Assembly: GCA_949292385.1 (NCBI GenBank)
Contig: CASEZC010000026.1
Span: forward strand, 1 to 35,819
DNA length: 35,819 nt
Reading direction: 5' to 3'
Source of the DNA: an uncultured Pseudomonadota bacterium
GTDB taxonomy: Bacteria > Pseudomonadota > Alphaproteobacteria > Rs-D84
A program made the translations under genes and the position numbers. This document shows, in pieces, positions 5,453-17,765 of the stretch. Numbering within the stretch: position 1 is the first letter of the stretch; every line of letters starts with the position of its first letter. Below the pieces are notes generated by a model, which made no database searches, was not told where the DNA came from, and saw only the letters and a list, made by a program, of their open reading frames with translations.

Positions 5453-5475
5453 TTTTTTTGAAATAGGTGTATGAT

Positions 5476-7743
5476 ATGGACAGTAGTTTTTATCACGCAT
5501 GGTTAGGCGATTTTTATTCTGATATTAAAAAATTGTGTAGGAAAGATGCTTATAATTTGGTGCTGCATAAGCACCTGGGGGATGTTTTTTATGCAATTGG
5601 ATTAAAGAAAGAGTTTGAAAAGCTATATAAATCAAAGTTGCATTTTATAGTTCGACCTCAACATGAATTTTTGATGAAAATATATGGCATACGAGATTAT
5701 TCTGTTTATGACCTGGATTCTTGTGTAAGAAAAAATTTTAACTTGGTAGATTGGTATTTTAAAGGAGTTAAACCAACGTCAAATCAATTAAACGGTTTGG
5801 ACGATTTGTTCTTTCAGGCAATGTTTCCGGGAGTTCCTGTAGCTAAAGGCGAGCCTTTTATTTGTGACAATTTAATAAACGGTTTCTTAGATTATGATAA
5901 ATATTGGTGCTTTCGTTGGGCAAAAAATATAGGTATAGATGATGATTTTAAATTTCTTATACCGAAAAATAATATAACTTTGTCCGAAACCGCCAAAAAA
6001 GCATTGAAAAAAATAGCACCAATTGAAAAAATTGTTCTTTTTGCACCAGAAGCTGCTACGGCATTAGAGTTTGCTCCGGAATTTTGGAATATTATCGCAG
6101 AGCAAGTTCATAAAAAAGGTTATACAATAATAGTAAATTCTAAAAGATATGAAATAAATCATGGAATATCTGCCTTTGATTTAGGTTTGTCCTTACAAGA
6201 TGTGGTAGCTTTGGGTTTAAATTGTGCTTATGTTTTTTCTTTGCGCAGCGGCTTGTGTGACGTTTTGGTTGGGGCTGGTGAAAGATTATATGCTTTTTAT
6301 CCTGCGCAACTTAGAAGAGAATATAAATCATTAGAATTCCCTTTTGATGAAAAAACTAATATAAATGAAATACAAGTTTATAATTGGGAAATTAGTGGCT
6401 TTACATGGGAAGGTATTGATTTTACAAAAAATTTACAAAATTATGTAAATAGTCTTCATAGAAGTTATGTTAAAGAAACAATAAAGCGTATCTTTTCAAA
6501 AAAATCTAATAAGCAATTACATAGATTTTGGCAACATTTGTTTAATGATTTGGCGGGCAGGTCAAAAGCTTTTCCTGAAAATAATATACAGAACCCTAAA
6601 CCTAATTTTTATAAGAATGTTTCTGTTCTGGGATTCTCTATTTATAAGCATTTTGTAATAAACGCTAACCCAAAAAAAGATAGAAAAATTTATTTGGGTG
6701 GGCTATTGCATCATACTAAATATTTAGATGACGGCGCTAGAATAACCAGATTTTTAGGAATCCCAGTTTATCAAAGGAAATATACTAAGTATAAAATAGT
6801 TAAAATATTAGGTATACCAGTTTATATAAAAGATAGAACAAAAGAATTTTTGCAATCATTGTGTTCTAAAATACAGTGTGATTATGATGATATTTATATT
6901 AGCCGGCATAATATCGGTGAAACTTATGTTTATTTATCTCATATAAAGGATTGGATAAATTACAATAAATCAAAGAAGCCTGTTGTTGTCGTTTGGCGCA
7001 AAAAGGACATACCTTTTTATGAAATGTTTGTTAAGAATTATGCAGATGTTGTATATGTTCCAATAGAACAATATGACTTAAATTTATTTTTAACGCAGGA
7101 TGTTACGAGTTTTGAAAATCATCGTATCTTTTGTCATACGTTAGAAATCGCTGAAAATATGAAAAAAATTTATGATTCTGGAAAAGAAATAAATTTTTAT
7201 GATTTTATTGTTAAAGATTTTAAATCATACTTAACTTCACCAGAAATACCCAAAATAAGTAAGGAAAAAAAGGCCAGAGTTTCGGAATTATTGAAAAATA
7301 ATTTAACAAGCAAGAAATTTGTTTTTGTTTGTCCGGCTGCAACTTCTTTGGTACATCTTAGTGACGATTTTTGGGCTTTGTTAATAGAAAAATTAAAAGA
7401 TATGGGCTATGAAGTTATTGTAAATTCTTTTGATGAAACAATAAATATGAAAGGTGTTTTGAATATAAAACCAGATATAGAAGAAATGTTTATTCTTGCA
7501 GTAATGTCTTCGGGTTTTATTTCTTTGGCTTCTGGATTAGCTGTTCTTTTATCAACATCGGGGGTTAAAGCTGATTTAATATATACAGATTTTAAAAATA
7601 ATATTTTAAATTCTTCTGAAGTTCTAAATTTATATTCTGTAAAGAATTTACCTGCTGTAGATAAGCAATTTGTAAAGGAATATGACGTTAAAAATTATTC
7701 AGAAAAAGATTTAATAGAAAAAATCTGTAAAAGATACGAATAA
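5476..7743 (+). CDS. Duplicated GT9-like glycosyltransferase, 755 residues
   Basis: The protein holds two copies of a heptosyltransferase-like (GT9/GT-B) unit. Copy 1 begins at LVLHKHLGDVFYAIG (about residue 28) and has its nucleotide-binding half around KIVLFAPEAATALEFAPEFW; copy 2 begins near residue 470 (YISRHNIGETYVYL) and has KFVFVCPAATSLVHLSDDFW. The two halves align through matching features: FAPEAAT/VCPAATS, EFWNII/DFWALL, GYTIIVNS/GYEVIVNS and SLRSGL/SLASGL. The roughly 130-residue linker carries three short repeats, VLGFSIY, FLGIPVY and ILGIPVY. I start at the ATG at 5476 (AGG 8 nt upstream), not the GTG at 5467. As the last gene of the glycan operon it probably assembles the glycan whose precursor the upstream enzymes make. 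Two tandem activities or one decayed half are both possible. Confidence 0.65.
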   Translation: MDSSFYHAWLGDFYSDIKKLCRKDAYNLVLHKHLGDVFYAIGLKKEFEKLYKSKLHFIVRPQHEFLMKIYGIRDYSVYDLDSCVRKNFNLVDWYFKGVKPTSNQLNGLDDLFFQAMFPGVPVAKGEPFICDNLINGFLDYDKYWCFRWAKNIGIDDDFKFLIPKNNITLSETAKKALKKIAPIEKIVLFAPEAATALEFAPEFWNIIAEQVHKKGYTIIVNSKRYEINHGISAFDLGLSLQDVVALGLNCAYVFSLRSGLCDVLVGAGERLYAFYPAQLRREYKSLEFPFDEKTNINEIQVYNWEISGFTWEGIDFTKNLQNYVNSLHRSYVKETIKRIFSKKSNKQLHRFWQHLFNDLAGRSKAFPENNIQNPKPNFYKNVSVLGFSIYKHFVINANPKKDRKIYLGGLLHHTKYLDDGARITRFLGIPVYQRKYTKYKIVKILGIPVYIKDRTKEFLQSLCSKIQCDYDDIYISRHNIGETYVYLSHIKDWINYNKSKKPVVVVWRKKDIPFYEMFVKNYADVVYVPIEQYDLNLFLTQDVTSFENHRIFCHTLEIAENMKKIYDSGKEINFYDFIVKDFKSYLTSPEIPKISKEKKARVSELLKNNLTSKKFVFVCPAATSLVHLSDDFWALLIEKLKDMGYEVIVNSFDETINMKGVLNIKPDIEEMFILAVMSSGFISLASGLAVLLSTSGVKADLIYTDFKNNILNSSEVLNLYSVKNLPAVDKQFVKEYDVKNYSEKDLIEKICKRYE

Positions 7744-13397: not shown

Positions 13398-16256
13398 ATG
13401 AGTGGCGTAATAAAAATTCGCGGTGCACGCGAAAATAATCTTAAAAATATTGATTTAGACATACCAAAAAATAAATTGGTGGTCTTTACTGGCGTATCCG
13501 GTTCTGGAAAGTCGTCATTGGCTTTTAATACTATTTATGCCGAAGGACAGCGCAGGTATGTAGAGTCTTTATCGTCTTATGCGCGCCAATTCTTGGATAT
13601 GCAAAAGAAACCAGACGTTGATACAATAGAAGGTTTGGCGCCGGCTATATCAATAGAACAAAAAACTACGTCTAAAAATCCTCGTTCAACGGTTGGTACG
13701 GTAACAGAAATTTATGATTATTTAAGATTGTTGTGGGCTCGTATAGGCGTCCCGCATTCGCCTGTAACTGGGTTGCCTATAAAGTCACAGACTATTGGGG
13801 AAATGGTTGATTGGACTTTGAAAATACCAGCCGGAACAAAAATATTTATAATGGCACCACTTGTTCGTGAAAGAAAAGGTGAGTATAAGAAGGAATTAGC
13901 GTTTTTGGTTAAACAGGGATATCAACGTGCAATAATAGATAATGAATTGTACGATTTATCGGCTGTTCCGCCATTAGATAAAAATAAAAAACATAGTATT
14001 TTTGTCATAGTTGACAGATTGCAAATACCAGCGCAAGATATAAAAGACTCTGATTTAGAAGATTTTAGATCCAGAATGTACTCTTCGTTTGAGGGGTCTT
14101 TGCGTTTGGTCCCTGGGTCTGTTTTGGTAAGACGCTTGGATACGAATGAGGATATTTTGTATTCTCAGAATTATGCATGTCCAGTAAGTGGCTTTACGGT
14201 ACCTAAAATAGAGCCTCGTTTATTTTCTTTTAATGCGCCTATGGGGGCATGTAGTGCTTGCGATGGATTGGGTGTGCAATTAAATATGTCGCCAGATTTG
14301 GTTATTCCTGACCCGTCAAAATCTATATTGGAAGGGGCAATTGCACCATGGTCGCGCGGTGGTATGTTGAGTCAGTTTGAACATTTGTTGGATGCTTTAC
14401 ATAAGAAATACAAAATACCTTTAACTAAACCGTGGCATACTTTAACTCCAGAACAAAAGAATTTAATTTTGTACGGCAGCGGTGACGAGCCTATAAAGAT
14501 AAATTGGAATGGTTTTGTTTACGAAAAACCTTATGAGGGCGTTATACCGAATATAGAAAGACGTTGGCGCGAATCAGATTCAGAAGCCATGCGAACAGAA
14601 CTTGCAAAGTATCAATCTGAAAAGCCATGTCCTGTTTGTCATGGAAAGCGCTTAAATATTCAAGCTTTGTGCGTAAAGATAAACGGTAAAGATATTATGG
14701 ACGTTTGTGATATGGCGGTTGATGATTCTTTGCGCTGGTTTGAAAATTTGCCGAACTGTTTGTCTAAAAAAGATAATGATATAGCCAGAATAATTCTTAA
14801 AGAAATTACAAGTCGTTTGCAGTTCTTGCAAAATGTTGGACTGGGATATTTAACCTTGTCCAGAATGTCTGGTACGTTGTCTGGTGGTGAAGCACAGCGT
14901 ATAAGATTGGCATCACAAATAGGAAGTGGCTTGTCAGGAGTTTTATACGTATTAGATGAACCATCTATAGGTTTGCATCAAAGTGATAACGATAAACTGT
15001 TAGATACTTTAAAAATGTTGCGAGATAAGGATAATACAGTAATCGTTGTCGAACACGATGAAGATGCTATGCGGGCCGCTGATTTCTTGGTAGATATTGG
15101 TCGTGGCGCCGGGGTAAATGGTGGTAATGTTGTTGCAGCAGGAAAACCAGAAGACGTTATAAAGTGTAAAGACTCTTTGACTGGTTTATATTTGTCGGGG
15201 GCCAGAAAAATAGAAGTTCCTAAAACTCGTCGTAAGGGTAATGGGAATGTAATTTCTGTTTGCGGTGCATGTGAAAATAACTTAAAAAATATTAATGTAG
15301 ATTTCCCGTTGGGCAAGTTCATTGCTTTGACTGGTGTTTCGGGGTCCGGAAAGTCAACATTGTTATTAGATACTTTATATCCTGCTTTAATGCGTGCGTT
15401 GTATAACAGTAAAATAGAAACTGGTAAGCACGATATTATTCGTGGTATGGAAAATGTTGATAAGGTCGTTGATATTGACCAGTCGCCAATAGGACGTACG
15501 CCACGCAGTAATCCTGCTACATATACCGGTGTTTTTTCTAATATAAGAGACTTCTTTGCAGGTTTGCCGGAATCCAAGGCACGTGGTTATACGTCTGGAC
15601 GCTTTTCTTTCAATGTAAAAGGTGGACGTTGCGAGGCTTGCCAAGGTGACGGTCAAATAAAGATAGAAATGAATTTCTTGGCAGACGTATATGTAGAATG
15701 TGATAAATGTCATGGTGCTAGATATAATGAAGAAACGTTGGCAGTAAAATATAAAGGTAAATCTATAGCAGACGTTTTAAATATGACTGTTGATGAGGCG
15801 TACAGATTCTTTGTTAATGTGCCGCAAATCGCAAGAAAGCTGGAACTTTTAAAACGAGTTGGTTTGGATTATATAAAACTTGGGCAGAGTTCTTTGGACT
15901 TGTCTGGTGGTGAGGCGCAAAGAATAAAGCTATCAAAAGAATTGGCTGCACGCAGCACGGGACAGACAATTTATATTCTTGATGAACCAACAACAGGTCT
16001 GCACTTTGAAGATATAAAAATGTTGTTATCTGTATTGCACGAGCTGGTTGACCAAGGAAATACTGTAATAGTAATTGAACATAATTTAGAAGTAATAAAA
16101 ACAGCGGATTGGATTATTGATTTGGGACCAACTGGTGGTGCAGGTGGCGGCAGGGTAATAGCAACAGGAACCCCAGAACAAGTTGCTGATAATCCAGAGT
16201 CTTTGACAGGAAAATATTTAAAGAAGTATCTGGACAAATCGCCAAAGAAAAAATAA
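13398..16256 (+). CDS. uvrA: UvrABC system protein A
   Basis: A 952-residue full-length excision-repair ATPase that scans DNA for damage with UvrB. Two ABC modules are visible, each with Walker A ([28 protein letters not shown]), signature (LSGGEAQRI twice) and Walker B ([22 protein letters not shown]). The C-terminal zinc module has both pairs (CEACQGDG and CDKCHGA). The first zinc module reads CPVSGF before CSACDGLG, so one of four cysteines is serine; I recall this form from alphaproteobacterial UvrA proteins. The start is leaderless. It is followed 24 nt later by the SRP54 M-domain gene, with no terminator between, so the two may be cotranscribed. Confidence 0.97.
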
Positions 16257-16280: not shown

Positions 16281-16787
16281 ATGTTTGGTTTCGGAAAAAA
16301 GAAAGTCGAAAAAAATGATAATGTCGTTACAGAACCACAAATCGATGAAAAAGAATTAAAAAAGATGGAAGAAAAGTTGCCAAGTGGTATGAAAGAAACT
16401 GCACAGCGCATGATGTCTGGTCAGTTTGATATGAATGATATGTTGGTACAGTTAAAACAGATAAAGAAAATGAGCAATTTTAGTGGACTGTTGAAAATGG
16501 TTCCTGGTATGTCTGGTGCAGTGTCTGCGATGAAAGAAAAAATAAAAGATGGCAGTGTAGATGCGCAGATTAAAATACTTGAAGCTATGACTGCAGAAGA
16601 ACGTGCAGACCCAGAAAAAATCTTTGCGAATGCGAAGACTCGTATTGCAGAAACTGCAGGTTGTACGGTTCGTGATGTAGAACATATGATTAAGCAGTAT
16701 ACTAAAATGCGTCAGCAGATGGCTATGATTCAAAGAATGGGGGGGATGGAAGCCGTCATGGAAAAACTAAAAAAGTCAGGGAATTAA
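16281..16787 (+). CDS. Stand-alone SRP54/Ffh M-domain-like protein
   Basis: A 168-residue, methionine-rich protein. After a charged 40-residue lead it follows the M domain of Ffh: FDMNDMLVQLKQIKKM, LLKMVPGM, AMTAEERADPEKI, then the helix-turn-helix TRIAETAGCTVRDVEHMIKQY and a Met-rich tail. Ffh normally carries an N-terminal NG GTPase of about 300 residues; none is present, and the upstream space is filled by uvrA. The conserved RNA-binding motif (RxRRIAxGSG in Ffh) reads AKTRIAETAG, so key Arg and Gly/Ser positions are lost. It has a strong ribosome binding site (AAAGGAG) and a clean reading frame, so it is not simply debris. It could be one part of a split SRP, an M-domain paralogue with a new partner, or a signal-sequence binder. 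The next gene starts 2 nt after its stop. Confidence 0.75.
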   Translation: MFGFGKKKVEKNDNVVTEPQIDEKELKKMEEKLPSGMKETAQRMMSGQFDMNDMLVQLKQIKKMSNFSGLLKMVPGMSGAVSAMKEKIKDGSVDAQIKILEAMTAEERADPEKIFANAKTRIAETAGCTVRDVEHMIKQYTKMRQQMAMIQRMGGMEAVMEKLKKSGN

Positions 16788-16789
16788 AA

Positions 16790-17098
16790 ATGGAATGGAA
16801 AAATTTAGGTGGTATCAAAAACTTTTTTAAAAGCATTTTCGTAACTAATCCAATCGCAGTTGATGCGCCAAAAGCCGTTTATATGGATTTTAAAGATGCA
16901 GGCCGTGTATTGATGAGCTATGATGTAGAAGTAAAATATGAAGATGATGTAAAAAGAACATTTTCTTTTTCTGTAGAAGAAAGAAAGTTGGGGTTGTCAC
17001 CTCGTAGACGCGCTTTGAAAAGAGCAATAGATTTTTATAGAAAGAAAAAAACAGAAATAGAAAATAAGAAAAACTCTCTGAGACAACGCGTGATATAG
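16790..17098 (+). CDS. Small basic protein of unknown function between the M-domain gene and rlmE
   Basis: A 102-residue soluble protein not matching any family I recognise. The N-terminal half is predicted beta (AVYMDFKDAGRVLMSYDVEVKYED, a short strand pair) and the C-terminal half is a strongly basic helix (SPRRRALKRAIDFYRKKK), which would suit RNA or ribosome contact. AGGG sits about 8 nt before the ATG within the end of the upstream gene, and only two bases separate the genes, so translation is coupled to the M-domain protein. Its stop codon overlaps the -10 of rlmE. A role as partner of the M-domain protein is inference from context. Confidence 0.65.
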   Translation: MEWKNLGGIKNFFKSIFVTNPIAVDAPKAVYMDFKDAGRVLMSYDVEVKYEDDVKRTFSFSVEERKLGLSPRRRALKRAIDFYRKKKTEIENKKNSLRQRVI

Positions 17099-17105: not shown

Positions 17106-17765
17106 ATGAAAATATTAAATAAGAAAATCGCATCAAAAAAATCTTCGGCGGCTTGGATTCAACGTCAGGCCGCTGATCCTTATGTTGCACGGGCTCATAA
17201 AGATGGTTACCGTGCAAGAGCGGCTTATAAGCTGATAGAAATAAATGAACGTTTTAAGTTCTTGAAAAATGGACAGGTCGTTGTTGATTTAGGCGCTGCC
17301 CCTGGGTCATGGACGCAGTATGTTGTAAGAACTTTCCCACGTTCAAAGGTTTTTGCGATGGATTTATTGGAAATTGTTCCAATACCAGACGTTGAGTTCT
17401 ATCAAGGTGATTTTACGTCTGATGAAGCTTTGCAATGGTTGGTCGAAAAGCTAAACTTGCCAGATGATGCAGCGAAAAATGGTACGGTAGACGTTGTCTT
17501 GTCTGATATGGCGCCAAATACGGTTGGGCATAAGAAAACAGACCATTTACGCCAAATGGTTTTATTGGAATATGCTTTTGATTTTGCTTTGCGTGCGTTA
17601 AAACCAGGTGGAACGTTTGTTGCTAAATCTTTTACTGGTGGAACAACGGGCGATTTATTAAAGCAGATAAAAGAAAAGTTTGAAACGGTTCATCATATTA
17701 AACCGCCTGCATCGCGTAAAGATTCTGTTGAAATGTTTATAGTCGCGCTGGGGTATAAAGGATAA
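17106..17765 (+). CDS. rlmE: 23S rRNA (uridine-2'-O)-methyltransferase RlmE (FtsJ/RrmJ)
   Basis: A 219-residue SAM-dependent methyltransferase that 2'-O-methylates U2552 in the A loop of 23S rRNA. Visible: the substrate-binding stretch YRARAAYKL with the first catalytic lysine, SAM motif VVDLGAAPGSW, DLLEI, catalytic aspartate in VLSDMAPN, second lysine in FVAKSF and glutamate in DSVEMF, completing the K-D-K-E tetrad. Length is typical. The gene lies 7 nt after the small basic protein and ends at a bidirectional terminator shared with rnhA, making it the last gene of the uvrA run. Confidence 0.93.
   Translation: MKILNKKIASKKSSAAWIQRQAADPYVARAHKDGYRARAAYKLIEINERFKFLKNGQVVVDLGAAPGSWTQYVVRTFPRSKVFAMDLLEIVPIPDVEFYQGDFTSDEALQWLVEKLNLPDDAAKNGTVDVVLSDMAPNTVGHKKTDHLRQMVLLEYAFDFALRALKPGGTFVAKSFTGGTTGDLLKQIKEKFETVHHIKPPASRKDSVEMFIVALGYKG

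Follow-up and report, generated by a model that had tools for sequence, protein, structure and literature searches.

A stand-alone M-domain gene lies between uvrA and rlmE

The window analysed here, a stretch of 35,819 nucleotides from a 0.78 Mb genome of Candidatus Enterousia, a genus of gut Alphaproteobacteria, contains a short gene whose 168-residue product (MFGFGKKK...GN) corresponds to the M domain of the signal recognition particle (SRP) protein Ffh/SRP54. Sequence inspection places an AAAGGAG stretch, resembling a ribosome-binding site, just upstream of the ATG start codon. The features of the locus are as follows:

13398..16256, + strand: uvrA, the conserved upstream neighbour of the M-domain gene (Pfam; adjacent in 78 of 80 loci)
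16281..16787, + strand: stand-alone SRP54/Ffh M-domain gene, 168 aa, without an NG GTPase domain (Pfam, TIGR00959)
16281..16304, + strand: conserved N-terminus MFGFG[KR]KK, resembling FtsY N-termini of sister families; possible membrane-targeting segment (22-row alignment A1)
16305..16379, + strand: variable, probably disordered linker, residues 9–33 (dN/dS 0.76; pLDDT below 50)
16422..16721, + strand: M domain proper, with signal-sequence groove, finger loop and helix-turn-helix (full-length Pfam match, dN/dS, fold match)
16632..16661, + strand: altered RNA-binding motif AKTRIAETAG, residues 118–127 (Ffh counterpart RKxRIAxGxG)
16790..17098, + strand: 102-aa orphan ORF of a small-protein family of variable copy number (no Pfam or NCBIfam match)
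17106..17765, + strand: rlmE/ftsJ, the conserved downstream neighbour (Pfam FtsJ; 79 of 80 loci)

The preliminary description of this DNA had read the gene as a complete M domain devoid of the NG part, with the usual RNA-binding motif changed to AKTRIAETAG, and both readings held. The profile search that it had proposed as a check matched Pfam SRP_SPB over the full profile (1–91) at residues 48–147, with an E-value of 9e-23 and a score of 81 bits where the cut-off is 27, and the NCBIfam ffh model (TIGR00959) was matched only at profile positions 313–427 of 428, that is, at its M-domain end. The closest PDB sequences were E. coli Ffh M domains, and the source genome contains no other M domain. 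Structure prediction of the protein alone, likewise proposed, gave an AlphaFold2 model built from 22 genus members (mean pLDDT 67, below 50 for the N-terminal 33 residues) that displays the M-domain helices; its best fold matches in the PDB were Ffh/SRP54 M domains, such as 1hq1 (target-normalised TM 0.87), with M-domain proteins of the Tetrahymena and Toxoplasma mitoribosomes matching less well. The possibility that the gene is the 3' end of a normal ffh was rejected, since the open frame comprises only 176 codons, uvrA ends 24 bases before the start codon, and the gene recurs in 147 genomes.

The orphan ORF downstream belongs to a family of about 90–100 aa (FDWTPVAV ... GYEVxVxYxYHG) located between the M-domain gene and rlmE in the window and in loci L062-L141, with several copies in some of them. 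As a required partner of the M-domain protein this neighbour was discarded, being variable and having no room in 18 of 79 loci. Elsewhere in the window, a 758-aa ORF (5467-7743) has no Pfam match at 1e-5.

The M domain is conserved throughout Candidatus Enterousia

Conservation in related genomes, a further check put forward at the outset, was extensive: 147 out of the 156 Enterousia genomes have the stand-alone M domain, as do 102 of 103 when only good genomes are counted; its frame never exceeds 232 aa, and it is never fused to an NG domain. The domain has changed very little across more than a hundred species. The sole exception among the good genomes, G287, lacks rlmE as well, so the segment is probably absent from that bin; in another genome without the M domain (G584), 133 bases lie between rlmE and the end of the contig. 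The exceptions examined look like gaps. Across a sample of the phylum, 393 of 397 genomes contained an M domain, and among the matches listed all frames outside Enterousia were long enough for a full-length Ffh; stand-alone copies outside the genus are not excluded. Reduced genomes have been described for the order, Rs-D84, in a report that does not mention SRP (PMC12306168).

Within the genus, the M domain (residues 36–156) exhibits a dN/dS of 0.038, indicative of strong purifying selection, and the groove half (residues 48–104) is its best conserved part, with a value of 0.023; the corresponding figures are 0.76 for the linker and, as a comparison, 0.092 for rlmE. These values are rough because synonymous sites are near saturation. 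Since most of the genomes are metagenome bins, a decaying remnant or an assembly artefact had to be considered. This explanation is refuted for practical purposes by the agreement of 147 genomes, by the constraint on the M domain, by neighbours that are alike in about 79 of 80 loci, by a concordant single-contig assembly, and by the concurrent lack of rlmE in the one good genome without the gene.

SRP GTPases and SRP RNA are not found in the genus

The missing NG part had suggested either a split SRP or a repurposed M domain. A search with PF00448, a profile that takes in both SRP54-type GTPases (Ffh NG and FtsY), found no SRP54-family GTPase in the source genome, while all 14 control genomes were positive; SRP RNA, searched with the RF00169 model only, was not found there either (13 of 14 controls positive). 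The proposed search of the genome for a full-length or an NG-only Ffh therefore returned neither. The same holds for the genus: no SRP54-type GTPase exceeded the PF00448 cut-off in any of 59 Enterousia genomes, nor in ten named assemblies, including the single-contig, 1.0 Mb OX097180.1, which may overlap with the set of 59. In each of 18 genomes from sister families of the order, the profile detected exactly two SRP54 GTPases, as expected for Ffh plus FtsY, the weakest match being 1.3e-24. RF00169 detected SRP RNA in none of the 59 Enterousia genomes and in 15 of the 18 sister-family genomes; the absence of the RNA is less certain than that of the GTPases because the model misses three sister genomes. 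The ffs neighbourhood of the sister genomes had no comparable position among the Enterousia loci examined. Judged from these searches, the genus appears to have lost both SRP GTPases and the SRP RNA. SecY and YidC are present.

A split SRP would require a diverged NG protein, FtsY and SRP RNA that all escape the models. Although the incomplete sensitivity of RF00169 leaves some room for this, PF00448 recovers both GTPases in 18 of 18 sister genomes and none over the cut-off in Enterousia, and the RNA-binding motif is altered genus-wide. Sub-threshold PF00448 matches in Enterousia lie within a single segment of a roughly 460-aa protein, and the one that was read is Der/EngA. With no NG protein, FtsY or RNA detected in the genus, we consider a split SRP highly improbable and, to the extent that sequence alone can tell, excluded.

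Two further observations were made in the course of these searches. A single-contig 0.6 Mb genome of the same class (G093, 88% complete) yielded no M domain, no SRP54 GTPase over the cut-off and no SRP RNA, YidC being present; it is possibly another alphaproteobacterium without SRP, there without the M domain as well. In many sister families, a gene of about 217 aa lies just after secY and is missing at that position in Enterousia (loci L199-L208 compared with L209-L218); judged by its position alone, it could encode adenylate kinase.

The signal-sequence groove is retained and the RNA-binding motif is altered

The Enterousia M domains keep 24 of the 34 columns conserved in Ffh. Among the RNA-contact residues, numbered as in the E. 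coli structures, Arg398 is replaced by Ala in 81 of 81 Enterousia rows (the 31 Ffh rows used for comparison all have Arg) and Gly405 is replaced, mostly by Thr. The motif had initially been called eroded; this is qualified by Arg401 and Gly407, which are retained. The loss of the motif together with the RNA has precedents in plastid and mitochondrial SRP (PMC8321541). The retained columns, the uniform Arg398 to Ala change and the absence of detectable SRP RNA (0/59) support the second of the initial alternatives, a repurposed M domain that keeps the groove and no longer holds SRP RNA. The residues newly fixed in the genus include A118, S65 and K98; Ser65 stands throughout in place of the finger-loop Gly, and hence substrate handling may differ.

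The N-terminus resembles that of FtsY

In the 22-row alignment, the first eight residues, MFGFG[KR]KK, are invariant apart from the K/R alternation at residue 6. Among 464 ORFs in sister loci whose N-termini were scored against this motif, the best four were all FtsY, and Ffh starts ranked from position 13. The resemblance comprises eight residues only and had been noticed before it was scored; consequently, an origin from FtsY and one from the Ffh start cannot be distinguished. A second FtsY-like stretch (IDExxLxxxEE, in P0001) was dismissed as not conserved in the genus.

This conserved motif, followed by a variable linker and similar to FtsY N-termini, is what a membrane-tethered holdase might carry, i.e., a protein not bound to the ribosome whose basic N-terminus anchors it to the inner membrane, where it catches hydrophobic segments in the immediate vicinity of SecYEG/YidC. 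We regard this as possible but unlikely, given that the similarity spans just eight residues, that no membrane-binding data exist, and that the precedent, mL105, is ribosome-bound (PMC7326499).

The gene appears to derive from an ffh in the same position

The order uvrA, M-domain gene, rlmE is kept in about 79 of 80 loci, and in 18 of them the M-domain gene directly abuts rlmE. In one sister genome (G062, locus L165), a full-length ffh (5593-7038) is directly followed by rlmE (7043-7690), a pair found in only one of eight sister loci. In a tree of alphaproteobacterial Ffh, the 15 sampled Enterousia M domains formed a single clade (support 100/100), in which the stem is long (1.26) and the internal branches are very short; its exact position among sister Ffh was weakly supported. 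The M-domain gene thus appears to derive from an ffh that stood in the same place, and the shape of the tree fits a loss of the NG part in place, with one burst of change and subsequent constraint.

The long stem and the newly fixed residues A118, S65 and K98 indicate a changed role, which need not be protein targeting: the protein could be a chaperone, a regulator of transcription factors or a ribosome assembly factor, and binding of SRP to the regulator sigma32 has been reported (PMC4823717). Such a role is opposed by the fact that the groove half is the most constrained region (dN/dS 0.023, residues 48-104), and we deem it improbable.

A proposed GTPase- and RNA-free signal-sequence receptor

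That detectable SRP GTPases and SRP RNA are absent from the genus and that the M domain is retained is shown by the data above. From the mitochondrial M-domain-only relatives and from the presence of SecY and YidC in Enterousia, we therefore propose, with a probability of roughly 55%, that the protein serves as a signal-sequence receptor that dispenses with GTPase and RNA, acts near the ribosome exit or the membrane and feeds SecY/YidC. This mechanism is inferred, there being no binding, localisation or phenotype data. According to this proposal, the ancestor of Candidatus Enterousia would have lost the NG GTPase region of ffh without relocation of the gene, along with FtsY and the SRP RNA, leaving a protein composed of the MFGFGKKK anchor, a flexible linker and the M domain. 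The groove would still take hydrophobic signal or transmembrane segments leaving the ribosome, the basic N-terminus would hold the protein near the tunnel exit and/or the membrane, and substrates would be handed over to SecY/YidC by proximity and competition rather than through an SRP-receptor cycle powered by GTP, in the manner suggested for mL105/MAP67 of mitochondria. Only tentatively do we go further and suggest that a fused minimal targeting factor of about 165 residues, joining an FtsY-like membrane anchor to the signal-sequence domain of Ffh, replaces SRP, its RNA and its receptor.

Against the proposal, no new ribosome dock is visible: compensation by a long C-terminal tail of YidC was not seen in Enterousia; neither were mitochondria-like extensions of uL29 and uL24, and uL23 carries a short N-terminal addition only. 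Any docking would therefore have to rely on the membrane or on the surface that a bacterial ribosome offers. In Ffh, the NG domain makes a large share of the contacts with the ribosome, and an isolated M domain may for this reason bind the ribosome weakly. Given that laboratory bacteria can survive the loss of SRP, Enterousia need not replace every SRP function.

Universal conservation is commonly assumed for SRP and its receptor. We found no published report of such a case in bacteria, although subscription journals and preprints were mostly outside our search. A genus of more than 150 species with the substrate-binding domain alone constitutes a natural experiment that separates signal-sequence capture from the GTPase cycle and reveals what part of the M-domain surface is required when there is no RNA. 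If the fused factor exists, co-translational targeting in a whole bacterial genus would proceed without the SRP GTPase cycle. Moreover, ffh and ftsY are among the standard bacterial marker genes, and completeness estimates for Enterousia may thus be biased low.

Comparison with known systems

The Enterousia M domain is homologous to that of bacterial Ffh over its whole length and apparently derives from an ffh in the same position, but it is accompanied by no NG GTPase, receptor or RNA, has Arg398 changed to Ala, has lost Gly405 and carries a new N-terminus. Chloroplast cpSRP54 and mitochondrial mtFfh likewise combine the absence of SRP RNA with changes in the RNA-binding motif (PMC8321541), yet these systems retain the NG GTPase and FtsY. 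Streptococcus mutans and E. coli suppressor strains also live without SRP (PMC8546722, PMC8299109); those are laboratory deletions, whereas the loss in Enterousia is natural, ancient and partial, with the M domain kept.

The closest parallel in architecture, an M domain alone without the NG GTPase, is MAP67, a mitochondrial protein proposed to have originated by internal deletion of N and G, occurring mostly in mitochondria without SRP and indispensable for two apicomplexans (PMC8321541). In Tetrahymena, the family member mL105 is located at the mitoribosomal tunnel exit (PMC7326499), and mL105 of Polytomella contacts an inner-membrane insertase (PMC9576764). Tetrahymena mL105 (6z1p_AT) matched the Enterousia protein in sequence with an E-value of 4e-5, and its fold match to the model reached a probability of 0.99, but an E-value of only 0.14 and a TM of 0.44. 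In contrast to these mitochondrial, ribosome-bound proteins with insertase contact, the Enterousia gene lies on a bacterial contig at the ffh locus, in a genus that keeps SecY; its product is far less diverged, and ribosome binding has not been shown for it. The locus and the tree of alphaproteobacterial Ffh, in which MAP67 was not included, point to an origin within the order, independent of MAP67. In Enterousia, the transition from SRP to mL105/MAP67 that took place in mitochondria has a bacterial parallel with little divergence.
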